This document shows positions 1,272-12,542 of a DNA stretch of 64,000 bases, piece by piece. The DNA is from an uncultured Pelagibacteraceae bacterium. Lineage in GTDB: Bacteria > Pseudomonadota > Alphaproteobacteria > Pelagibacterales > Pelagibacteraceae. The notes beneath the pieces are model-generated. The model had not been told where the DNA came from, did no database searches, and saw only the letters and a list, made by a program, of their open reading frames with translations. Every line of letters begins with the position of its first letter. Within the stretch, counting starts at the first letter, position 1. The position numbers were made by a program, and so were the translations under genes. Where the stretch lies: NCBI GenBank assembly GCA_902636075.1, contig CACPQM010000003.1, positions 1 through 64,000 of the forward strand. Reading direction: 5' to 3'.

Positions 1272-2344
1272 TGTCTATTAAACATTTGTTTTAAACCGAT
1301 AGTAGATGCCTCACATATGCCTTTCTCTGTAATTAAACCTGTCACATATTTTGCAGGAGTTATATCAAATGCTAAATTCTTTGATTTACTTTTTTCAGGG
1401 TAAATTAAAACTTTCTTAACATTATTTTTATCGTCTTTTCCTTCTATATGGGATAGTTCCTCAGAATTTCTCTCTTCAATAGGTATCTTATTATAATCTT
1501 TAGTTTCCCAATCAATTGTAGAGCTTGGTAAAGCTACATAAAAGGGCACATTATTATCATGTGCTGCTAATGCTTTTAAATATGTGCCAATTTTATTACA
1601 AACATCTCCCGTAGATAGAGTTCTGTCTGTTCCAACAATGCACATGTCAACCTCTCCTCTTTGCATTAGAATACCACCAGTATTATCTGTAATAATTGTA
1701 TTTGGTATACCCTCTTCATTTAATTCAAACGAAGTTAAATTTGCTCCTTGATTTCTTGGTCTTGTTTCATCGACCCATACATGAATTGGTATTCTTTTTT
1801 TATGTGCTTGATAAATTGGTGAAGTTGCTGTACCCCAATCTATAGTTGCTAACCACCCTGCATTACAGTGAGTTAAGATATTAACAGTTTTATTATTTTT
1901 ACTATAAATTTCTTCAATTATTTTTAGTCCATTAAATCCTATATTCTCACAAAATTTTACGTCCTCATCACATATTAATTTTGCTTCTTTTAATGCTACA
2001 TCCAATAATTCATCAGACTTCACAAATGATAATTTATTATTCATTCTATGAACTGCCCATTGCAAGTTTATAGCTGTAGGTCTTGAATTAACTAATTCTT
2101 CTGAACTTTTTTTAATGTAATCTAAATTTTTATTTTCTTGTATTGCTAATACTATCCCGTAGGCAGCAGTTCCACCAATAAGAGGTGCACCTCTTACCTC
2201 CATAGTCTTTATTGCTTTTACTACATCTTTTATTGTCTTTAAATCTTTAATAATAAAATGATGTGGAAGTTTGGTTTGATCAATTATTTTTACTACATTA
2301 TTTTCATACCAAATTGTTCTATATTTTTTTCCATTTATTCTCAT
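1268..2344 (-). CDS. mtnA: S-methyl-5-thioribose-1-phosphate isomerase MtnA
   Basis: It converts 5-methylthioribose 1-phosphate, the product of MtnP, to methylthioribulose 1-phosphate. At 358 residues it has the usual length for the eIF2B-like isomerase family. The RGAPLIG motif is at residues 51-57, and the catalytic pair known for the family is present as Cys160 (in LTHCNAGW) and Asp240 (in GTDRT). The gene abuts the PhyH gene upstream and overlaps the sulfatase start downstream, so it is co-transcribed with both. No MtnB/MtnD-type enzymes of the classical methionine salvage route are seen nearby, so the fate of the ketose phosphate is unclear here. Confidence 0.96.
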   Translation of the reverse strand: MRINGKKYRTIWYENNVVKIIDQTKLPHHFIIKDLKTIKDVVKAIKTMEVRGAPLIGGTAAYGIVLAIQENKNLDYIKKSSEELVNSRPTAINLQWAVHRMNNKLSFVKSDELLDVALKEAKLICDEDVKFCENIGFNGLKIIEEIYSKNNKTVNILTHCNAGWLATIDWGTATSPIYQAHKKRIPIHVWVDETRPRNQGANLTSFELNEEGIPNTIITDNTGGILMQRGEVDMCIVGTDRTLSTGDVCNKIGTYLKALAAHDNNVPFYVALPSSTIDWETKDYNKIPIEERNSEELSHIEGKDDKNNVKKVLIYPEKSKSKNLAFDITPAKYVTGLITEKGICEASTIGLKQMFNRQ

Positions 2345-3136
2345 TTAATTACTCCAAACCACAGGAAACCAATCTTTTCTCATTTTATCTCCTGGTTTTA
2401 AATCTATTCCAGCAAAAGGTGGAGAGGTTACTCCATTTCTATCAATGTATCTTACATCGTCTCCAATAAATCTTGCAGAAAAAGCTTTACGACTTTTTTT
2501 GTCACTATTTCCTGAAGATGAATGTAAAGCTTTAAAATTAAATAATATTGCATCCCCCATATCCATCTCTGTACTAAAAATTTTATTTTTATCTATATTT
2601 GGAATGTCCATAAAACTCTTGTTATTTTTATACCAAAAATTGTCATTTGACCATTTAGTAGGTCTTACTAACTTTGGCAACTTGTGGGATCCCTTTAAAA
2701 CTTTTAGAGAGTTATCTTTTGATACAATGTCTAATGGTATCCAGAAACTTCCTGTATCATTTCCATCTACGCAATAATATGGAAGATCTTGATGCCATGG
2801 GGTTTCTTTTTTTGTGCCAGGTTCCTTTAAGAAAATGTGCTCATGAAATATCTGAATTTTATTAGATTGAGTTGATTGAGCAACAATTTCTGCAGCTGGT
2901 GAATTAAAAATAAAATCTTTAAATTCATCTATTCTTTGCCAATTACAATAGTCCTCAAAAAATCTTCCTCCATGTTGTTTTGAAACATTTTCTCTGCCAT
3001 GTGAACTTGGTTTATTTAATACTTTTTGAAATCCCTTACTAAGTTTTTCAATCCAAGGCGAAAAAGCTTTTTTGATTAAAATTACACCGTCTTTTTTATA
3101 ATCTAAAATTTGCTTATCAGTTAATTTTGCAGTCAC
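2345..3136 (-). CDS. Phytanoyl-CoA dioxygenase (PhyH) family protein
   Basis: This is a 263-residue Fe(II)/2-oxoglutarate-dependent dioxygenase of the PhyH type. The iron ligands can be placed as His115 and Asp117 (in PWHQDLPYY) and His205 (in KALHSSSG); Arg217 or Arg222 would hold the 2-oxoglutarate carboxylate. It starts by overlapping the end of mtnP by 4 bases and ends one base before mtnA, so it is embedded in the methylthioadenosine salvage operon. The family acts on very diverse small molecules, so the substrate is unknown; the context suggests a thio- or nucleoside-derived compound, but this is inference only. Confidence 0.85.
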   Translation of the reverse strand: MTAKLTDKQILDYKKDGVILIKKAFSPWIEKLSKGFQKVLNKPSSHGRENVSKQHGGRFFEDYCNWQRIDEFKDFIFNSPAAEIVAQSTQSNKIQIFHEHIFLKEPGTKKETPWHQDLPYYCVDGNDTGSFWIPLDIVSKDNSLKVLKGSHKLPKLVRPTKWSNDNFWYKNNKSFMDIPNIDKNKIFSTEMDMGDAILFNFKALHSSSGNSDKKSRKAFSARFIGDDVRYIDRNGVTSPPFAGIDLKPGDKMRKDWFPVVWSN

Positions 3137-4005
3137 TTCTTTAAAACTCTACCAGCTACTGTTTTTAGTTTATTTTTTGTCTTTTGTGATCTTTTTTCTG
3201 GAGCAGTAATTATAGCAACATCTAAACAATTATTTGTTGGATCATCAGGATCAATATAAGTTTCAAAATTTTCAATTAGATTTTTAATCATGCTTTTTGC
3301 TTTAGCAGCATTATCTAATAATACTTTTATTACTTTTTGGACATCAACATTTTCATGATCTGGATGCCAACAATCATAATCAGTCACCATTGAAACAGAT
3401 GCATATCTAATTTCTGCTTCTCTTGCTAATTTAGCTTCAGGCATATTTGTCATTCCGATCACATCAGCTTTCCATGATCTGTAAAGATTCGACTCAGCTA
3501 AAGTTGAAAATTGTGGGCCTTCCATTACCACATAAGTTCCTCCCATTTGATAATCTATTCCTTCTTTTTTTATTGCATACTCACATGCATTCATTAAGCC
3601 TTTAGAGGTTGGGTGTGCCATTGATACATGAGCAACTATTTCCTCATCAAAAAAGCTTTTATTTCGAGCAAATGTTCTGTCTATAAATTGATCAACAATA
3701 ACAAATTTACCGGGAGGCAAATTTTCTTTCAAAGAACCTACAGCAGAGACAGATACAACATCTGTTACACCCAATTGTTTTAATGAGTCAATGTTTGCTC
3801 TAAAATTTATCTTTGATGGTGAAATAAAGTGTCCTTTACCGTGTCGTGGTAAAAAATAAACTTCTTTATTTTTATAAATTGCTTTTAAAATCTGATCTGA
3901 TGGTTTTCCCCAAGGAGTGTTTAAATCTATTAATTCTCTGTCTTTGAAATCCTCAACATCGTAAAGACCACTTCCACCAATTATTGCTAATTTATTATTT
4001 GCCAT
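3133..4005 (-). CDS. mtnP: S-methyl-5'-thioadenosine phosphorylase MtnP
   Basis: It phosphorolyses 5'-methylthioadenosine to adenine and 5-methylthioribose 1-phosphate. The 290-residue protein shows the family signatures: GGSGLYD near residue 10 (phosphate binding), RHGKGH, MEGPQFST (substrate methionine and purine site) and MTNMPEAKLAREAEI. It is the first gene of the minus-strand operon mtnP-PhyH-mtnA-sulfatase. The divergent apt gene starts only 37 bp away and would salvage the adenine released, so the two transcription units share one short promoter region. Related purine nucleoside phosphorylases share the fold, but the motifs and the mtnA neighbour make MtnP the best call. Confidence 0.95.
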   Translation of the reverse strand: MANNKLAIIGGSGLYDVEDFKDRELIDLNTPWGKPSDQILKAIYKNKEVYFLPRHGKGHFISPSKINFRANIDSLKQLGVTDVVSVSAVGSLKENLPPGKFVIVDQFIDRTFARNKSFFDEEIVAHVSMAHPTSKGLMNACEYAIKKEGIDYQMGGTYVVMEGPQFSTLAESNLYRSWKADVIGMTNMPEAKLAREAEIRYASVSMVTDYDCWHPDHENVDVQKVIKVLLDNAAKAKSMIKNLIENFETYIDPDDPTNNCLDVAIITAPEKRSQKTKNKLKTVAGRVLKK

Positions 4006-4042
4006 GTAAAAAGTAATTATATTTGAATTATAAATAACTATT

Positions 4043-4570
4043 ATGGATTTAAAAGATTATATTCGCTCAATTAAAGATTATCCTAAAAAAGGTATTTTAT
4101 TTAGAGATATAACCACATTAATAAAGAATGAAACTGCCTTTGAGGAGTCAATAAATCAAATAGTTGAGAGATCCAAAAAATTTAAGGTAGATAAAATCGC
4201 TGCTATTGAATCACGTGGTTTTGTGTTTGCATCCGCCGTTTCTTACATTTTAAAAAAACCATTTATAATGTTAAGAAAAAAAAATAAACTACCTGCTGAT
4301 GTACATTCAGTTGATTTTGAGCTTGAATATGGAACAGCAACAATAGAAGTACATAAAGACTCAATTTCACAAAATGACTCTGTTCTCATAATAGATGATT
4401 TGATAGCAACAGGTGGAACTGCAGCAGCTGCAGCAAAACTTATTGAACTTTCTAAAGGAAATGTTTCAGCTTTTATATTTGTCATAAATCTTTTTGATTT
4501 AGGTGGCTGTGATAATCTTTTAAAAAAAGGTTATAATGTTGAAAATTTGATGGACTTTCCAGGTCATTAA
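4043..4570 (+). CDS. apt: Adenine phosphoribosyltransferase
   Basis: It joins adenine to PRPP to make AMP, salvaging adenine produced by the divergent mtnP gene. The 175-residue length is typical. It has the SRGFVFA segment near residue 56 and the PRPP-binding loop VLIIDDLIATGGTA near residues 116-129, both characteristic of Apt rather than of hypoxanthine enzymes. It begins 37 bp from the mtnP start in the opposite direction, and the exported protein gene that follows starts 15 bp after its stop, suggesting co-transcription. Confidence 0.95.
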   Translation: MDLKDYIRSIKDYPKKGILFRDITTLIKNETAFEESINQIVERSKKFKVDKIAAIESRGFVFASAVSYILKKPFIMLRKKNKLPADVHSVDFELEYGTATIEVHKDSISQNDSVLIIDDLIATGGTAAAAAKLIELSKGNVSAFIFVINLFDLGGCDNLLKKGYNVENLMDFPGH

Positions 4571-4585
4571 TGGGTAAAATCTAAT

Positions 4586-5020
4586 ATGAAGAAATTAATT
4601 TCAATCTTAATTTTAATCGTTTTATATCAAACAACATCACAGGCTGGACAATATTCTAACAAATTTGCAAATTGTCTAATGCAAAAAACTACGGAAAGAG
4701 ACAAAATAGTTCTTGTGAGATGGGCATTTTCTGCAATGGCCCACCATTCAGCTTTGAAAGAAGAATTTAATATTCCAAAGAGTAAATTTACAAAACACGA
4801 AATTGCAGTGGCTGATTACGTTCAATATATTTTGGGAACAGTTTGTTTTAAAGAAACAAAAAACGTTTTAAAATACGAGGGAGATGAAGCTTTCCTAAAA
4901 GCGTTTGAGATGTTAGGAGAAATTGCTTTTTTATCATTGATGGAAGAAGCAACTGTTTCAAATGCATTAGAAAATTACGTAACACATATTGACCCTGAAT
5001 TTTTAAAAAAATTTGATTGA
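4586..5020 (+). CDS. Exported protein of unknown function
   Basis: A 144-residue protein that I do not recognise. Residues 1-20 form a signal peptide (positively charged start, hydrophobic core, TTSQAG cleavage region). The mature part is mostly helical with two cysteines (NCLMQ and TVCFKE) that could form a disulfide. It follows apt by 15 bp on the same strand. Its stop codon ends at 5020, the base immediately before the 3' end of the convergent tRNA-Met gene, so there is no room for a separate terminator between them. It lies on the native side of the neighbouring integrated element. Confidence 0.75.
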   Translation: MKKLISILILIVLYQTTSQAGQYSNKFANCLMQKTTERDKIVLVRWAFSAMAHHSALKEEFNIPKSKFTKHEIAVADYVQYILGTVCFKETKNVLKYEGDEAFLKAFEMLGEIAFLSLMEEATVSNALENYVTHIDPEFLKKFD

Positions 5021-5097
5021 TGGTAGCGGGAAGTGGGATCGAACCACTGACCTCGGGCTTATGAGTCCCGCGCTCTAACCAACTGAGCTACCCCGCC
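5021..5097 (-). tRNA. tRNA-Met (CAT anticodon), intact copy
   Basis: A 77-nt cloverleaf on the minus strand with encoded CCA. The acceptor is GGCGGGG/TCCCGCT with G-T wobbles at both ends, the D-stem is GCTC/GAGC, the anticodon loop CTCATAA, and the T-arm AGTGG-TTCGATC-CCACT. The A37 context and the absence of a mismatch at the acceptor tip fit an elongator Met tRNA rather than the initiator; a CAT-anticodon tRNA-Ile (lysidine-modified) is less likely. The anticodon stem CGGGA/GCCCG has an A31-G39 mismatch. Its 5' portion is repeated 2554 bp away, marking it as an integration target. Confidence 0.95.
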
Positions 5098-5100
5098 ATT
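5045..5100. repeat. attL: 56-bp direct repeat spanning the 5' part of tRNA-Met
   Basis: These 56 bases are identical to 7599-7654 in the same orientation. The block covers tRNA nucleotides 1-53 plus three bases upstream of the tRNA. Identity stops sharply on both sides (5044 differs from 7598, 5101 from 7655), as expected for the core duplicated by site-specific recombination. Confidence 0.93.
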
Positions 5101-5108
5101 CTTAATTA

Positions 5109-5137
5109 ATTGTAACATTTCACAAGTGTTGTCACAA
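5109..5137 (-). promoter_or_regulatory. Candidate promoter of the intact tRNA-Met, supplied by the element
   Basis: Reading on the minus strand, TTGTGA (5137-5132) and TACAAT (5114-5109) are separated by 17 bases, a good sigma-70-type match, and the tRNA 5' end lies 12 bases beyond the -10 box. The promoter lies inside the integrated element, and its -35 overlaps one of the TGTCACAA motifs that are candidate recombinase sites. Confidence 0.6.
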
Positions 5138-5148
5138 GCCTGTCACAA
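5130..5148. promoter_or_regulatory. Paired TGTCACAA motifs near attL (candidate recombinase arm sites)
   Basis: TGTCACAA occurs at 5130-5137 and again at 5141-5148, that is 11 bp apart, about one helical turn, between attL and the recombinase start. A related, more degenerate pair with the same spacing and orientation occurs at 7492-7510 near the other end. The arrangement resembles arm-type binding sites of tyrosine recombinases; this is inference. Confidence 0.45.
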
Positions 5149-5162
5149 ACACAGGAGAAAAA

Positions 5163-6107
5163 ATGTCATCAATTAGAAAACGAGGTAATAAATACCAAGT
5201 TCAAGTAAGAGTTCAAGGACAAAAAATAACAAAATCATTTAATAGACTAAGCCATGCTAGAAGATTTTCTGCTTATTATGAGAACAAGATTTTACTAGGA
5301 AATCATCTTCAAACTTTAAATAAAAACCTCTCATTAAAGAACCTCATCGATAGATATTTACAAGAAATAACTCCTCTTAAAAAAGGTAAAGACAGAGAAC
5401 AGCAAAGACTAAATAGATTGCTTAAAGAAGATTTGGTTAATGAAAAAATCTATAAACTTAATACTAAAGACTTTATAAAGTTTAAAAATAAGAGAATTAA
5501 AGATGGTAATAGAACTTGTAGGTACGATTTGTCTTTACTCCATCATATTTATAATACTGCTATTAAACAATGGTGTTTCCCAATAACTCATAATCCATTA
5601 TCTAACATTAAAAAACCTAACTGTAATCCCCCAAGAGAAAGAAGGTTAAATGATAACGAGCTTAAATATATTCTAAATCATAACTTTAAAAATAATAATA
5701 TGAACAACATCATTGAGCTTGCTATTGAAACGGGGATGAGAAAAAGTGAAATATTATCTATTACAAATGATGATGTTAAAGATAATCATATCTTCTTAGC
5801 TGAAACTAAAAATGGTAACTCTAGAAAAATACCATTAACATCAAAGGTAAGAGAGATAATAAATAAGTCTAAACTTCCCTACTCTATCAGTAGTAATGCT
5901 GTAAGACTTAGTTGGAACAGAATGATTAAGAAAGCAGGTATTGTTGATTTACATTTTCATGACTTAAGACATGAAGCTATATCAAGGTTCTTTGAAAAAG
6001 GTTTATCAATACCAGAAGTAAGTCTTATATCAGGTCATAAGGATGTTAGACAATTAATGAGCTACACTCATTTAAAGATTAACAATCTTATTACTAAACT
6101 AAATTAA
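5163..6107 (+). CDS. Tyrosine recombinase / integrase of the tRNA-Met element
   Basis: A 314-residue site-specific recombinase that would integrate and excise the element at tRNA-Met. Residues 1-45 look like an Arm-type DNA-binding domain, residues about 55-145 a core-binding SAM-like domain, and 160-310 the catalytic domain. The catalytic set is complete: Arg193 (TGMRKSE), Lys216, His266 and Arg269 (HFHDLRHE), His292 (SGHKDV) and the nucleophile Tyr301 (MSYTHL). An AGGAG ribosome site precedes the ATG. It starts 62 bp from attL and reads away from the tRNA. The gene appears intact, so the element may still be mobile. Confidence 0.93.
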   Translation: MSSIRKRGNKYQVQVRVQGQKITKSFNRLSHARRFSAYYENKILLGNHLQTLNKNLSLKNLIDRYLQEITPLKKGKDREQQRLNRLLKEDLVNEKIYKLNTKDFIKFKNKRIKDGNRTCRYDLSLLHHIYNTAIKQWCFPITHNPLSNIKKPNCNPPRERRLNDNELKYILNHNFKNNNMNNIIELAIETGMRKSEILSITNDDVKDNHIFLAETKNGNSRKIPLTSKVREIINKSKLPYSISSNAVRLSWNRMIKKAGIVDLHFHDLRHEAISRFFEKGLSIPEVSLISGHKDVRQLMSYTHLKINNLITKLN

Positions 6108-6136
6108 GGGGTACATATGAGCCATAGGGGGTGTGT
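6103..6136 (+). repeat. Left arm of a gapped inverted repeat flanking the cargo genes
   Basis: Beginning at the recombinase stop codon, the blocks ATTAAGGG, ACATATG, GC, TAGG and TGTGT occur in this order. The same five blocks, in the same order on the opposite strand, occur at 7262-7287, with small insertions here. The pair brackets the two exported-protein genes. Confidence 0.5.
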
Positions 6137-6218
6137 ATGGGATATATCTATTACTTATACAAAATAGTTACATTTAGATTGTAAACTAGATGAGGTCGAG
6201 CCTGCTGAGAAGATTAAA

Positions 6219-6719
6219 TTAATTACAGGTAAATCTATTAACAAAGATTGTGGCTCTATTCCTATCTGTTTCTAATGTATCAAGGTTGCTTGTTTCAGAT
6301 ATAAATAGTTCATAATAATCATTATTCAAACTAACTTCTAATCTTAAAAATGTAATTTTTTCTAATCTTCCTTCGTATTTTTTAAGTTTATCATTCAAAG
6401 ATATATCGTTTTGGTCTATTCGACTATAGGAATATCCAGTAAAACCACCAAGAGGCAATCTATCATTAATATGAAAGTCTACTTTATCCCCTCTAAAAAT
6501 AAAAGATGCATTACCAAACTTATTTGAATTCCATTTATCAAATTCATTAGTAGTATTGAAAATTAATGATGCTGTCTCATCGCTTAATGTGGTTCTGTAC
6601 TCTCCTTGTAAATTCCAAAAGTTAAGTACTTTTTTACAGGTATAATTTTCTACATTAGCTGATGCATGTGCTGGGAAATAAACACCTAGCATCATTAAAA
6701 TAATTAGAAATCGTTTCAT
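6219..6719 (-). CDS. Exported protein of unknown function, element cargo
   Basis: A 166-residue protein I do not recognise. Residues 1-20 are a signal peptide (MKRF start, hydrophobic core, HASA cleavage site). The mature region begins with a cysteine (YTCKKV) and ends with another (RFTCN), so a disulfide closing the domain is plausible. It is rich in charged and aromatic beta-like segments and may be a small periplasmic or secreted beta-domain. It lies 3 bp after the stop of the other cargo gene, so the two form an operon. It has no visible link to recombination and could be immunity, exclusion or host-surface cargo; this is speculation. Confidence 0.75.
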   Translation of the reverse strand: MKRFLIILMMLGVYFPAHASANVENYTCKKVLNFWNLQGEYRTTLSDETASLIFNTTNEFDKWNSNKFGNASFIFRGDKVDFHINDRLPLGGFTGYSYSRIDQNDISLNDKLKKYEGRLEKITFLRLEVSLNNDYYELFISETSNLDTLETDRNRATIFVNRFTCN

Positions 6720-6722
6720 TAA

Positions 6723-7151
6723 CTAATCATAAAATACACATATGTCCTTTGTCCACTCCATATTAGGAACTAAACCTAAGGAACTGTCAACCCATGGACT
6801 AGGGTCATGTAATGAAAACACCCTTATTTGAGGATTGTCAATCTTGCTGCCACCACCTAAATAGTACTCTAAATTAGCTGCGAAATAGATATCTTTTTCT
6901 TCAACACCCTCGCACCACTTTGCTAAAGCAATAAAACTCCAAACAAATGAGATATTATTTATTTCTCCTGTTGAAATATCTTTTTCCCAAATCCTATCTC
7001 CTCTTTCATACTGTTCAATGTAAATGATATTACCATTATCCAATTGGTATGTTTTTTCTAAGTATTCTTTTTTAAAAGGAAGTTTGTTTTCAACAGCTAA
7101 AGCAACAAGGGGAAAGAACAACAATAGAAATACATGTAATAGTAGTTTCAT
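6723..7151 (-). CDS. Exported protein of unknown function, element cargo
   Basis: A 142-residue protein I do not recognise. Residues 1-19 form a signal peptide (MKLLLHVFLLLFF core, VALA cleavage). The mature part contains two cysteines (AKWCEGVE and the C-terminal DICVFYD), many acidic residues and several tryptophans. It is the first gene of the two-gene cargo operon of the tRNA-Met element, transcribed toward the recombinase gene and followed after 3 bp by the second exported protein. No Shine-Dalgarno is obvious before the ATG. The function is unknown. Confidence 0.72.
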   Translation of the reverse strand: MKLLLHVFLLLFFPLVALAVENKLPFKKEYLEKTYQLDNGNIIYIEQYERGDRIWEKDISTGEINNISFVWSFIALAKWCEGVEEKDIYFAANLEYYLGGGSKIDNPQIRVFSLHDPSPWVDSSLGLVPNMEWTKDICVFYD

Positions 7152-7261
7152 TGTTAATAATAATATTGTTGTTTTTAGACATAAATAAGATGGTGTAAAT
7201 TGTATTGTTTAGTATTTGTTATCAATGTTTTTAGTGTGTTTAAGTGAGGGGTCTACAATAG

Positions 7262-7287
7262 ACACACCTAGCCATATGTCCCTTAAT
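7262..7287 (-). repeat. Right arm of the gapped inverted repeat flanking the cargo genes
   Basis: Read on the minus strand these 26 bases are ATTAAGGG-ACATATG-GC-TAGG-TGTGT, without the spacer bases found in the left arm at 6103-6136. It lies about 110 bp upstream of the first cargo gene. Confidence 0.5.
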
Positions 7288-7491
7288 TAACTTATTTAAC
7301 AATATGTAAAAGATATTTAAAAAGTAGATAAACAATACACAACATTATTGTGTTAAAGATTATTTAGAAGATATTTAACTGATGACCTCTCTTAAGACCT
7401 TGTTATATATTATATAGATACAGTTTTAATTCCATAACCAAACATTTGTAAAACATTGTGAGTTATATTGACTCACTACATTTCAAGTCTC

Positions 7492-7510
7492 GCCACAGCT
7501 CTGTCACAAT
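7492..7510. promoter_or_regulatory. Degenerate TGTCACAA pair near attR (candidate recombinase arm sites)
   Basis: CGCCACAG at 7492-7499 and TGTCACAA at 7503-7510 start 11 bp apart and are in the same orientation as the pair at 5130-5148. The surrounding 24 bases also align with the attL-side block at about three quarters identity. Confidence 0.4.
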
Positions 7511-7598
7511 AATATTTTATAAATAATATTAATATTAATTTACAGGTTAAAATAACAAGCTTGTTTAGTTAAGAATTGATGGGTTAAGTGAAGTTTTG

Positions 7599-7651
7599 CA
7601 CTGACCTCGGGCTTATGAGTCCCGCGCTCTAACCAACTGAGCTACCCCGCC
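7599..7651 (-). pseudogene. Truncated tRNA-Met copy (nucleotides 1-53)
   Basis: This is an exact copy of the first 53 nucleotides of the tRNA-Met at 5021-5097, including D-arm and anticodon arm but lacking the 3' T-strand, acceptor strand and CCA. It keeps the presumed native upstream region (7655 onward), where a TTGTTT...TATATA promoter-like pair can be read on the minus strand, so a 5' tRNA fragment could still be transcribed. Confidence 0.9.
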
Positions 7652-7654
7652 ATT
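7599..7654. repeat. attR: second copy of the 56-bp direct repeat
   Basis: Identical to 5045-5100 over 56 bases in the same orientation; it marks the right boundary of the element. Crossover most likely occurred within this block. Confidence 0.93.
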
Positions 7655-7710
7655 TAATTTACTTTGTTATATACTACCTATTTTTCTTTCAAACAAGAAA
7701 ATCAGAAATA

Positions 7711-8682
7711 TTATAATTCTTTATAAAAATTTAAAATATCTTTACAAGTATTATCGTAATTAAATCTATCTAAATTATATTCTATTTTTTTTGGTCTATT
7801 CTCATAAGCTATAATCATTTTATTTTTTAAATCATCTATATTTTCGTTTTCAAAAGTTTCGACATTGTAGTTGCATATCCAATCTTTATTACCCTCATGC
7901 ACAGTAGTTATTATTGGAAGTGAAAAAGTCATAGCCTCCACCATAGCAATACCAAAGGTTTCCCATCTTGAAGCGGATATATAACAATCAAAAAGTTTAT
8001 AATAGTCCTGAATGTTGTCTTTATGTCCAAGTGTAATTATATTTTTACTCTTATAATGTTTATACTCATTATGACTATTCCCAATAAGAATTAAATATGC
8101 ATTATCTAATCTTAGATTTTTAAAACTTTCATAAATGATATCAAAACCTTTTTGCTTGTGAAATCTTCCCACAGAGCCAAATATATAGCTTTTTTCAGGT
8201 ATAGATAATTCCTTTTTTATCTCATCATTTTTTTTTGAAAAATTATTTTGAGCACAGGGCCAATAATAGAGATTTTTAATCTTTCCTTTAAATAACTTAG
8301 AAGCTTTTTTAATTTGAGTTTTATTAGGGATTATAAGGCCGTCATGATTTAAATAATGATCTTTTTGAAAATTCATATGAACAGTAGATACAAGCTTAAA
8401 ATTTTTCTTTGTAATAATTTTGCTAGCATTTCCTAAATGAGTATGAACAACATCTGGTTTTATAGTTGCAATTATTTTGTTTATTTTAATTTTTTTAAAA
8501 AAACCCTTCAAATCATATGTTGTAACATTGCTATTTAAAAATTTTTTGTATTTTTTAGTGTCAGATTCTGGGTTTTTTATTAAGAAAGTTTGATGACTTT
8601 GTGATTGATGGTTTAACAAATTAATAGCATATAACTCAGACCCAGCAAATCCTTTTGAAATTAAAACGTGAAGTATTTTCAT
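7711..8682 (-). CDS. Glycosyltransferase, GT4 family
   Basis: A 323-residue retaining glycosyltransferase with the GT-B fold. The N-terminal domain starts with the typical glycine-rich entry (VLISKGFAGSELYA), and the C-terminal donor-binding domain has GSVGRFHKQKGFD (a GT4 hallmark) and the EAMTFSLPIITT region, where a glutamate contacts the nucleotide-sugar ribose. It probably acts at the cytoplasmic face on a cell-surface lipid or polysaccharide. It stands alone just outside the element's right end, with no other envelope biosynthesis genes beside it, so donor and acceptor are unknown. Confidence 0.9.
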   Translation of the reverse strand: MKILHVLISKGFAGSELYAINLLNHQSQSHQTFLIKNPESDTKKYKKFLNSNVTTYDLKGFFKKIKINKIIATIKPDVVHTHLGNASKIITKKNFKLVSTVHMNFQKDHYLNHDGLIIPNKTQIKKASKLFKGKIKNLYYWPCAQNNFSKKNDEIKKELSIPEKSYIFGSVGRFHKQKGFDIIYESFKNLRLDNAYLILIGNSHNEYKHYKSKNIITLGHKDNIQDYYKLFDCYISASRWETFGIAMVEAMTFSLPIITTVHEGNKDWICNYNVETFENENIDDLKNKMIIAYENRPKKIEYNLDRFNYDNTCKDILNFYKEL

Positions 8683-8734: not shown

Positions 8735-9421
8735 CTAAGTTTTTTTAACACCAGTTGGATGTGGAACCCCATCTATTATTAATTTCGGTTCAACACTTAC
8801 ATCAATCAATTCAGGACGTTTATCCAAATAAGATTTAACACTTTTGATAGACATTATGTCTTCTGAAAATTTTTCTAATCTCGGAAATTTTTTTATAATT
8901 GATAGATCAAGCATTTTAGATAAATCTAAATGATGAAATGTAACAAAATCACATGCTCTTGGTTCATCAAAGATAAAAAATTTTTTGTCATTATCTTTTA
9001 AGGCTTTTTCAAGATCTTCAAATCTTGATAATAAAAATGGCGTCATGTCATCTTTTTTTTTTATAAATCTCTCACCTGTTGCAAAATTTACCGTAGGGTT
9101 AAGTGGCATAAAAAGTTCCTGTGCGCTTTGCATAATAGCATTTGCTTTAGCATTTAATATTGGTTCAGTAATATTAATGCCTGCTAAATTTTCTATAAAT
9201 GTCATTATTGCCATACTTTGACAAATCTCATGTTTCTTATCTATAATTAACATAGGTAATTGTTTAAAGGGAATATTAGGTTTTACATCTGACCATTCCT
9301 TATCATAGTAGTCCCATGACATATGATCTTCATATTTAATATTTGTATAATGAAATAATAAACGTGGAGCTTCCGCTAAAGCTCTCATTTTAAAATATAT
9401 TAATTCTAATTTATGTGTCAC
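8735..9421 (-). CDS. Glutathione S-transferase family protein
   Basis: A 228-residue cytosolic GST-like protein. The N-terminal thioredoxin-fold domain (residues 1-80) has the pattern LIYFKMRALAEAPRLLFHY, a LPML cis-proline motif and a QSMAI stretch equivalent to the glutathione gamma-glutamyl site. The C-terminal helical domain follows to about residue 205, including the N-capping region RACDFVTFHHLD. The arrangement is closest to sigma-class enzymes. It is followed on the same strand by the glycosyltransferase and preceded by a 60-residue membrane protein 6 bp away. The substrate is unknown. Confidence 0.85.
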   Translation of the reverse strand: MTHKLELIYFKMRALAEAPRLLFHYTNIKYEDHMSWDYYDKEWSDVKPNIPFKQLPMLIIDKKHEICQSMAIMTFIENLAGINITEPILNAKANAIMQSAQELFMPLNPTVNFATGERFIKKKDDMTPFLLSRFEDLEKALKDNDKKFFIFDEPRACDFVTFHHLDLSKMLDLSIIKKFPRLEKFSEDIMSIKSVKSYLDKRPELIDVSVEPKLIIDGVPHPTGVKKT

Positions 9422-11276: not shown

Positions 11277-12542
11277 ATGTTTGCATTAGCATCTATACTA
11301 TCTTTGGTAGCGTTAATAATTTCTGTTCCTATTTTTTTAGTATTTGGATTAGGTAGTTCTATAGCTGCTATTGGTGGACTAAATCTTCCTTGGTCTGTTT
11401 TAATTCAAGTATCATTTGGAGCTCTAACAAAACATGTGCTTATAGCAGTTCCATTATTTATTTTCAGTGGGATGGCGATGCTTAAAGGCGGTGCAGCACT
11501 AAGACTTGTAAGATTTGCAACAACTTTAGTTGGACATTGGCCAGGAGGTCTTGGTGTTGCAATGGTAATTGCTATGGGTTTCTTTGCAGCATTTTGTGGA
11601 TCTATATTAGCTGCAATTACTGCAGTAGGTACAATCATGATGCCTAAAATGATTGAACAGGGCTACCCTACTCCATTTGTTGTAGTACTAGCTGCATCTG
11701 CAGCACTTCTTGAAGCTTTAATTCCTCCATCAAATGCTGCTATTTTGTTTAGTGCACTTACATACGTACCTGTCTCTAAAACATTTGCTGCAGGAGTTAT
11801 ACCAGGAGTTATTCTTCTAATTTTAATGGTTCTGTTAGTTTTATTTAAGTGCAGACATATAAGAGCCGATAAAAAAGCTTCATTCAAAGAAAGATTAAGT
11901 TCTTTTATTGCAGCACTTCCAGCATTGATAACTCCGGTTATAATATTAGGTGGAATTTATGCTGGTTTTTTAACTCCATCGGAGTCAGCAGCAGTTGCAG
12001 GTGTTTATGCAGTAGCAATAGGGTTTTTAATTTATAGAGAATTAACTTTTTCATCTTTATTAAGTTGTTTAAAGGATACTGCAATAATTACTGCAGTTAT
12101 ATTCTCAATAATTGCAACAGCTACTTTTTTAAGTGTCGTACTTACTTATACTCAAGCACCTCAAAAAATTATTACTTATTTTACAGACATGGGTGTTAGT
12201 GTGAATCTGTTCTGGTTAATGTTGGGTACAATATGTTTAATACTTGGAACTTTTATAGAAATAGTTCCAGTATTTTATTTGACTGTTCCAATTTTTGCTG
12301 CATTAACATTATCTTTTGATCAAAGTTTATTACACCTCTATGTAGTATTTGTTGCTTTTGCTGGAATAGGAATGATTACTCCACCTGTTTGCGTGGGTAT
12401 ATATACTGCTGCTGGTGTAATAAAAGAGAACCCTGCAAATGCATTTAAAGAAGTTCCCTTGTTTACAATTGTTGGAATTATTTATGGAATATTAATGATT
12501 TTATTTCCAGTATTTTCAACTTGGTTACCTAGTTTTCTTTAA
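11277..12542 (+). CDS. dctM: TRAP transporter large permease DctM
   Basis: A 421-residue inner-membrane protein with 11-12 hydrophobic segments and the DctM hallmark sequences: the VPLFIFSGMAM entry, the GFFAAFCGSILAAITAVGTIMMPKM hairpin region and the ITPPVCVGIYTAAGV block. It catalyses sodium-coupled translocation of solute delivered by DctP. It begins right after dctQ and overlaps the convergent gene at its 3' end by 4 bases. The family assignment is firm; the substrate is unassigned. Confidence 0.95.
   Translation: MFALASILSLVALIISVPIFLVFGLGSSIAAIGGLNLPWSVLIQVSFGALTKHVLIAVPLFIFSGMAMLKGGAALRLVRFATTLVGHWPGGLGVAMVIAMGFFAAFCGSILAAITAVGTIMMPKMIEQGYPTPFVVVLAASAALLEALIPPSNAAILFSALTYVPVSKTFAAGVIPGVILLILMVLLVLFKCRHIRADKKASFKERLSSFIAALPALITPVIILGGIYAGFLTPSESAAVAGVYAVAIGFLIYRELTFSSLLSCLKDTAIITAVIFSIIATATFLSVVLTYTQAPQKIITYFTDMGVSVNLFWLMLGTICLILGTFIEIVPVFYLTVPIFAALTLSFDQSLLHLYVVFVAFAGIGMITPPVCVGIYTAAGVIKENPANAFKEVPLFTIVGIIYGILMILFPVFSTWLPSFL

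Follow-up and report, generated by a model that had tools for sequence, protein, structure and literature searches.

This study analyzed a 64,000-nucleotide stretch of DNA from an uncultured Pelagibacteraceae bacterium (contig CACPQM010000003.1 of assembly GCA_902636075.1; hereafter, the window), and the results revealed what is very probably a 2.55-kb integrative element of this SAR11-like bacterium. The element encodes a tyrosine recombinase of its own along with two small cargo proteins, c1 and c2, that are probably exported; its insertion split and rebuilt a tRNA-Met gene and apparently displaced the native promoter of that gene. A small self-encoded cargo carrier is the best reading of the element, which belongs to the rare class that uses the 5' half of a tRNA gene and lies within a hotspot extending across the genus. 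A preliminary description of the window, made from the sequence alone, had missed the use of the tRNA 5' half, the putative promoter exchange, and the genus-wide hotspot of small inserts at tRNA-Met.

The element is bounded by two direct repeats of tRNA-Met sequence that are identical at 56 of 56 positions and spaced 2554 bp apart (Table 1). The interval between them holds the recombinase gene on the plus strand; c2 and c1, two small open reading frames (ORFs), occupy the minus strand. The preliminary description had reported perfect repeats around these three ORFs, and both the identity of the repeats and the intact tRNA-Met gene beside them bore this out. ARAGORN identified a single tRNA gene in the window, the tRNA-Met(cat) gene, in agreement with Rfam (RF00005, 62.6 bits); we take it to be the elongator tRNA gene. 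When the flanks were joined without the element, ARAGORN called a tRNA-Met gene of the same sequence as the present one. In the inserted state, the 3' end of the gene is that of the chromosome and the 5' half is that of the element, and the displaced fragment, comprising tRNA nucleotides 1–53, is of the 5'-half class. The G+C content is 0.287 in the element versus 0.305 in the window, and a search of the same genome with the whole element and the tRNA gene found a match at a single place.

We compared this neighborhood with the first 12 relative loci in the list after the window (L003–L014; blastn, E 1e-4). Nine of the 12 contained apt, tRNA-Met, and gst with a single tRNA copy, which are the empty sites proposed as a check in the preliminary description. 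Two loci (L003 and L007) were occupied by other inserts, and L009, where gst lies beyond the stretch, was left unsorted. The single-tRNA sites in relatives, the restoration of the tRNA gene by joining of the flanks, and the related recombinases at tRNA-Met described below indicate that the element is integrated.

The recombinase matched Phage_integrase in Pfam (4.1e-24) and the integrase family PHROG_1 (2.6e-50), and motifs holding the expected R, K, HxxR, H, and Y were all found; we take these residues to be catalytic. An intact-looking tyrosine recombinase with a full catalytic set, as claimed earlier, was therefore confirmed. The top relative among the matches listed (80% identical) is that of the Pelagibacteraceae genome AG-333-B23 (L242), and the gene order apt–orf144–tRNA-Met–recombinase is common to this genome and the window; this common order also points to Pelagibacteraceae as the most likely host family. 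The single-contig genome G082 encodes a 62% identical recombinase at tRNA-Met, adjoining a 3' fragment (nucleotides 33–77); its whole tRNA-Met gene is located at the opposite contig end, and the occupied region spans the contig ends if the contig is circular. The att cores of the window and G082 overlap only in tRNA nucleotides 33–53, and the crossover would lie in or beside the anticodon loop if the two recombinases cut alike. In G082 (L053), approximately 125 bp of tRNA 3' fragment and element end form an inverted repeat (9012–9136 and 12085–12209) that encloses both a 503-aa ORF and the 62% identical recombinase; an inversion or a double insertion might produce such an arrangement.

A tree was built from 95 recombinases, namely that of the window, 14 from the genome set, and the 80 best of a longer list. 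The preliminary description had expected homologues at tRNA sites, and 74 of the 95 adjoin a tRNA or tmRNA gene or a fragment of one. These lie on the 3' side in 65 cases and on the 5' side in 9, with no tRNA, tmRNA, or fragment in view for the other 21; the side counts carry two wrong labels, in that L327 (G187) was entered on the 3' side, though its insert is of the 5' type, owing to a tRNA call by ARAGORN in the fragment, and G082 was entered as having none despite its 3' fragment. The window and AG-333-B23 formed a supported pair, with G082 next. Because the 5'-side label requires seven changes on the tree, or six without the rows lacking a tRNA, the 5'-side habit appears to have been gained or lost several times. 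Two related recombinases (L250 and L253) adjoin, on the 5' side, pairs of identical complete tRNA-Gly(gcc) genes approximately 6.2 kb apart (5864–5938 and 11953–12027 in L250; 5864–5938 and 11985–12059 in L253), and the element there may bear a whole tRNA copy.

Paired sites with an 11-bp period are located near both ends of the element. The left TGTCACA copies start at 5130 and 5141, and the pair overlaps the −35 of the tRNA promoter-like site; the copies of the right pair start at 7491 and 7502. A single exact TGTCACA pair was present in the window, and 100 shuffled sequences contained none. Among 201 genus genomes, the exact pair was detected in two, once in the genome of the window (G000) and twice in G082, both of which are known to encode a recombinase of the window's kind; the reversed control gave no match. 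The exact pair is also present in AG-333-B23.

A set of 300 genus genomes was searched with the tRNA-Met gene (E 1e-9). A match was obtained in 221 genomes, and 36 had at least two matches, comprising 14 with a 5' fragment, 19 with a 3' fragment, and three that could not be sorted (G011, G027, and G123). A recombinase of the window's kind was present in three of the 14 5'-type inserts (G000, G187, and G573). No recombinase was found in the other 11 at E 1e-3 with ORFs of at least 80 codons, nor was any Pfam recombinase found in 10 cargo ORFs from seven of these 11. The sizes of the other inserts at tRNA-Met ranged from 0.6 to 5.4 kb.

Six of the 11 recombinase-free inserts (in G290, G037, G156, G008, G203, and G124) have common ends with GTGGACC-type pairs; the loci are L322 (G290; 2205–4794), L323, L324, L325, L326, and L054. 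They share 112–156 bp at one end (366 bp in one pair) and 56–87 bp at the other. Their cargo varies, including a ResIII-type helicase protein, an HNH protein, a T5orf172 protein, and small membrane- or exported-looking proteins. A conserved 55-aa ORF is present in five of the six (L322, 2788–2952; L054, 8849–9013; L325; L323; and L326). This ORF also occurs near tRNA-Met in G017 (L192), and a 59% relative of it (L344, 6424–6585) adjoins a c2 relative in G118. The GTGGACC pair also adjoins tRNA-Met in G017 and G126, each with only one tRNA match seen. G290 contains four repeats of the right-end type, one an exact pair and the rest with one change, each just ahead of an ORF, and this layout resembles a small gene-cassette array.

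Two observations relate the recombinase-free inserts to the recombinase family. The recombinase-free insert of G077 and the recombinase-bearing insert of G187 have a common end sequence (64 bp at 78%). In L294, from an alphaproteobacterial metagenome-assembled genome, a recombinase 38% identical to that of the window lies at tRNA-Val, and an exact GGTCCAC pair with an 11-bp period (5972–5989) is located just ahead of its start, in the orientation relative to the start that is found in the GTGGACC inserts. Locus L294 appears to tie the GTGGACC motif to a recombinase of the window's family. It was considered as a helper for the GTGGACC inserts and rejected, as its frame is broken by a stop and its recombinase is distant. 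No helper recombinase for these inserts was found in the genus, and their exact 23-nt right-end pair occurred in no viral contig. The shared ends, the varied cargo, the match between G077 and G187, and the motif in L294 suggest that the recombinase-free inserts are moved in trans. We tentatively propose, as a possibility well short of an even chance, that tRNA-Met in SAR11 hosts a two-layer system, in which a few self-encoded 5'-half elements exist alongside a larger set of recombinase-free cassettes with common ends, recombinase-type arm pairs, and unrelated cargo that move in trans; each 5'-half insertion would swap promoters, with the element driving the tRNA gene and the cargo gaining the native tRNA promoter.

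The leader now located beyond the right repeat resembles the leaders ahead of intact tRNA-Met genes in relatives, which suggests that the native promoter was shifted out of place and now reads into the element, toward c2–c1. The element supplies the 5' half of tRNA-Met and presumably its promoter as well. The orientation of ORFs of at least 70 codons was counted in the 14 5'-type inserts and in nine 3'-type inserts, one per genome; of the 19 3'-type genomes, this sample leaves out G082 and nine others. In the 5'-type inserts, 30 of 35 ORFs have the same orientation as the tRNA gene, pointing away from the displaced native promoter; in the 3'-type inserts, 6 of 18 ORFs share the tRNA orientation. 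Counted by insert, the majority of ORFs run in this direction in 12 of the 13 5'-type inserts with ORFs (none does so in G192, and G194 has no ORF). This bias backs promoter capture by the cargo only moderately because neither ORFs within an insert nor inserts within a family are independent. The native promoter was considered as the driver of the cargo; the orientation bias favors this role, but the data are non-independent, and c2 may have a promoter of its own.

On the basis of these findings, a mechanism can be proposed. In the circular form, the paired TGTCACA arm sites near either end most likely serve as binding sites for the recombinase, and recombination would occur in the anticodon-loop region of tRNA-Met. 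Integration would split the tRNA gene and join chromosomal nucleotides 54–77 to nucleotides 1–53 of the element, and the tRNA gene rebuilt in the window in this manner is identical. The rebuilt gene would be transcribed from the promoter-like site positioned inside the element. The native promoter and the old 5' half lie 2.55 kb away, facing c2–c1, whose transcription this promoter may serve. The reverse reaction would be excision, with restoration of the old gene, and a role of the element for its host would lie in the exported proteins.

The cargo genes c2 and c1 are separated by 3 nt, and the N-termini of both proteins are hydrophobic with AxA-like ends when read by eye, suggesting that both are probably exported. 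The preliminary description had placed two exported cargo genes and the recombinase in one small operon. Two small ORFs with such N-termini were indeed found, the export call being a by-eye reading; however, the recombinase lies on the strand opposite to the cargo, and an operon is possible for c2–c1 alone. Relatives of c2 (39–64% identical) were detected in five of 200 other genus genomes, and the alignment of the six sequences contained 41 invariant columns, including two Cys. None of these relatives was at tRNA-Met or with c1 in the 9–14 kb stretches around them, and c2 belongs to a small family that a few other genus genomes keep elsewhere. A defense function of c2 was considered and rejected; two of the five relatives (G071 and G037) are near cytosine-methyltransferase genes, and none was recognized in the stretches inspected around the other three. 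For c1, the 201-genome genus search gave only weak matches (E 0.005–0.1, in 15 other genomes), which were taken as chance. Neither protein had a meaningful match in Pfam, PHROGs, NCBIfam, or PADLOC. In PDB, c1 had no match, and the c2 profile gave only E 0.39. Pattern-based scans of viral contigs matched neither protein, and the single-sequence AlphaFold models of c1 and c2 were poor (pLDDT 46 and 49).

Table 1. Features of the tRNA-Met element and its borders (positions in the window).
Feature	Positions	Strand	Basis
Intact tRNA-Met(cat); nt 54–77 (5021–5044) chromosomal, nt 1–53 within repeat	5021..5097	-	ARAGORN, Rfam, repeat boundaries
Left att copy, 56 bp (tRNA nt 1–53 plus 3 upstream bases)	5045..5100		Repeat search
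Promoter-like site for tRNA-Met, supplied by element: TTGTGA-17-TACAAT, TG ahead of second hexamer	5109..5137	-	Promoter scan, leader comparison
Left pair TGTCACA-4-TGTCACA, 11-bp period	5130..5148	+	Pattern search; directly upstream of recombinase start
Tyrosine recombinase (integrase), 314 aa	5163..6107	+	ORF list, Pfam, PHROG, motif reading
Cargo c1, 166 aa, signal-peptide-like start by eye	6219..6719	-	No convincing relative
Cargo c2, 142 aa, signal-peptide-like start by eye	6723..7151	-	Relatives in 5/200 other genus genomes
Weak terminator-like hairpin between displaced tRNA fragment and c2	7458..7476	-	1 found vs 0.8 expected, chance level
Right pair: degenerate CGCCACAG then TGTCACAA, 11-bp period	7491..7509	+	Repeat family D6, 77% to left stretch
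Right att copy: displaced 5' fragment of tRNA-Met (nt 1–53 plus 3 upstream bases)	7599..7654		Repeat search, tRNA comparison
Apparent displaced native tRNA leader/promoter region (ttgtttgaaag...gtagtatata)	7655..7710	-	Leader comparison

Two further ORFs border the element. One of them (4586–5020), situated outside the repeats and between apt and tRNA-Met, encodes 144 aa, and its start resembles a signal peptide by eye; it is kept in some relatives only and may be the residue of an earlier insertion. A glycosyltransferase gene (7711–8682) is located between the displaced tRNA fragment and gst. It had no DNA match in the single-tRNA sites of the nine relatives, so the upstream flank is itself variable.

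The element was compared with described systems. Of 3919 islands in Islander, 3760 had a 3' fragment, whereas 159 had a 5' fragment (Table 1 of PMC4383910). As described in PMC4383910, these tRNA-integrated islands resemble the element in having an intact tRNA gene, a same-strand fragment displaced to the correct side, a tyrosine integrase inside, and a crossover fitting the anticodon-loop class. By the Islander features, the element has tDNA with a displaced fragment, an integrase inside, and a suitable length, as its 2554 bp fall within the 2–200 kb range, barely over the 2-kb lower cut; it differs in bearing a 5' rather than the usual 3' fragment. Empty sites in relatives, the customary proof of integration although Islander does not ask for them, were found at nine of the 12 loci. 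According to PMC8371274, 5'-half integration is seldom met in bacteria, and pTN3-like archaeal integrases use the 5' half of a tRNA gene, which is then expressed from the integrase promoter. Similarly, the 5' half of the tRNA rebuilt in the window is element sequence, and its promoter presumably stems from the recombinase end. Unlike the pTN3-like elements, however, the element is bacterial, and its att copies lie outside the recombinase gene, which is left unsplit on integration; the likeness drawn here is one of geometry.

The AG-333-B23 element shares with that of the window the recombinase, the tRNA-Met site, the orientation, and the exact arm pair, but its cargo downstream of the recombinase is a type I restriction-modification system (hsdM and then the start of hsdS), and its contig lacks the far end. 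A 2.4-kb insert in Methylophilales LSUCC0135 (L319) likewise uses the tRNA-Met 5' half and has a 36% identical recombinase and paired 11-bp-period repeats near both ends; its motif is instead TTGCACA, no exported cargo was recognized, and one ORF reads by eye as a transposase fragment. Tycheposons, as defined second-hand in PMC10872708, also have a tRNA border, a tyrosine recombinase, cargo, and streamlined aquatic hosts, but measure 4–200 kb rather than 2.55 kb. PICMI satellites, as described in PMC10803314, are similarly marine with few genes and an integrase; they carry AlpA and a primase, whereas the element has the integrase only. Its three ORFs had no relaxase or conjugation match in Pfam, PHROG, or NCBIfam and thus do not indicate an integrative conjugative or mobilizable element. 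In the open-licence literature, from which the tycheposon and VEIME papers are absent, we found no description of SAR11 inserts of this kind. Each part of the element has a precedent; its size, its putative 5'-half promoter exchange in a SAR11-like host, and its recombinase-free company are jointly unusual.

The preliminary description had left open whether the element is a minimal cargo carrier or a satellite that depends on a phage. In the latter case, a helper phage would excise, copy, and package it, as for PICMI- or VEIME-like elements. The small size and the marine streamlined host would suit a satellite, and satellites without capsid genes exist (PMC10803314). Moreover, tRNA-Met may serve prophages. 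The 45-nt 3' half of tRNA-Met was found in four viral contigs, three of which bear a longer and distant recombinase, and the ORFs of one of these, L361, read by eye as phage-like; of the fourth contig, 755 bases were covered. In these three contigs (L361, L359, and L362), the 3' half stands beside a recombinase-like ORF of approximately 430 codons, a possible prophage site. By contrast, neither the exact 53-nt 5'-half att sequence nor the exact 19-nt arm pair occurred in any viral contig, the recombinase matched viral contigs at 35% at best among the matches listed (34% for the best phage record), and c1 and c2 had no match in 50,697 phage records. A primase, an AlpA-type regulator, a terminase, and a capsid gene are all absent among the ORFs of the element, and Pfam, PHROGs, and NCBIfam gave no replication, packaging, or conjugation match for any of the three, in line with the earlier statement that such genes are lacking. 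Lacking marker genes, exact att or arm matches in viral contigs, and cargo matches in phage records, a phage-dependent satellite is without positive support and rather improbable, and the cargo carrier proved to be the better half of the earlier alternative.

A decaying remnant of a larger island, which kept its recombinase and ends and lost its original cargo and helper genes, is also unlikely, although less so than a satellite. AG-333-B23 holds at least 2.2 kb past its recombinase, of which approximately 1.9 kb is restriction-modification genes. A 31-aa open frame just after that recombinase has a short, stop-interrupted counterpart in the window when read by eye (tblastn gave no match), and the 447 bp at the right end of the element contain no listed ORF on the cargo strand. 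All of these would fit a remnant; nevertheless, the recombinase and the two cargo frames look intact, as do both att copies and, except for the degenerate first repeat of the right pair, the arm pairs, and a small size is usual among the inserts at this site. Repeats of tRNA sequence can also come from tandem duplication or misassembly without any integration, but a tRNA-site recombinase lies inside the interval, paired sites lie near both of its ends, and the left junction is repeated in a second organism; such an origin is hardly credible.

Several points weigh against a self-encoded cargo carrier. No excision factor or replication function was recognized in the element. The host assembly comprises 29 contigs and is 86% complete, and repeats of 56 bp are a possible source of error in short-read assembly; the right-hand junction was found in no second genome, and the AG-333-B23 contig stops short of the far end. 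The right arm pair is degenerate, the TGTCACA pairs are putative arm sites by position and period, and the protein search for the recombinase covered only part of the other 199 genomes in the arm-pair count. The promoter-like scan of the region yielded 12 sites against 17.6 expected in shuffles, which is not above chance, and the case for the tRNA promoter-like site is therefore one of position and not of score. Finally, c1 had no relative at E 0.001 in a 397-genome family search.

The small self-encoded cargo carrier remains the best reading, and it bears on the biology of the group. SAR11 genomes are streamlined, yet at this one locus, tRNA-Met, they accommodate a series of very small cargo inserts. 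A true promoter exchange would mean that a mobile element controls a tRNA gene in one of the most common groups of marine bacteria and that it expresses its own genes from the host tRNA promoter. Recombinase-free inserts with common ends would show low-cost exchange of single genes, defense genes included, in very small genomes, and a minimal recombinase with paired arm sites would constitute a compact recombination module.

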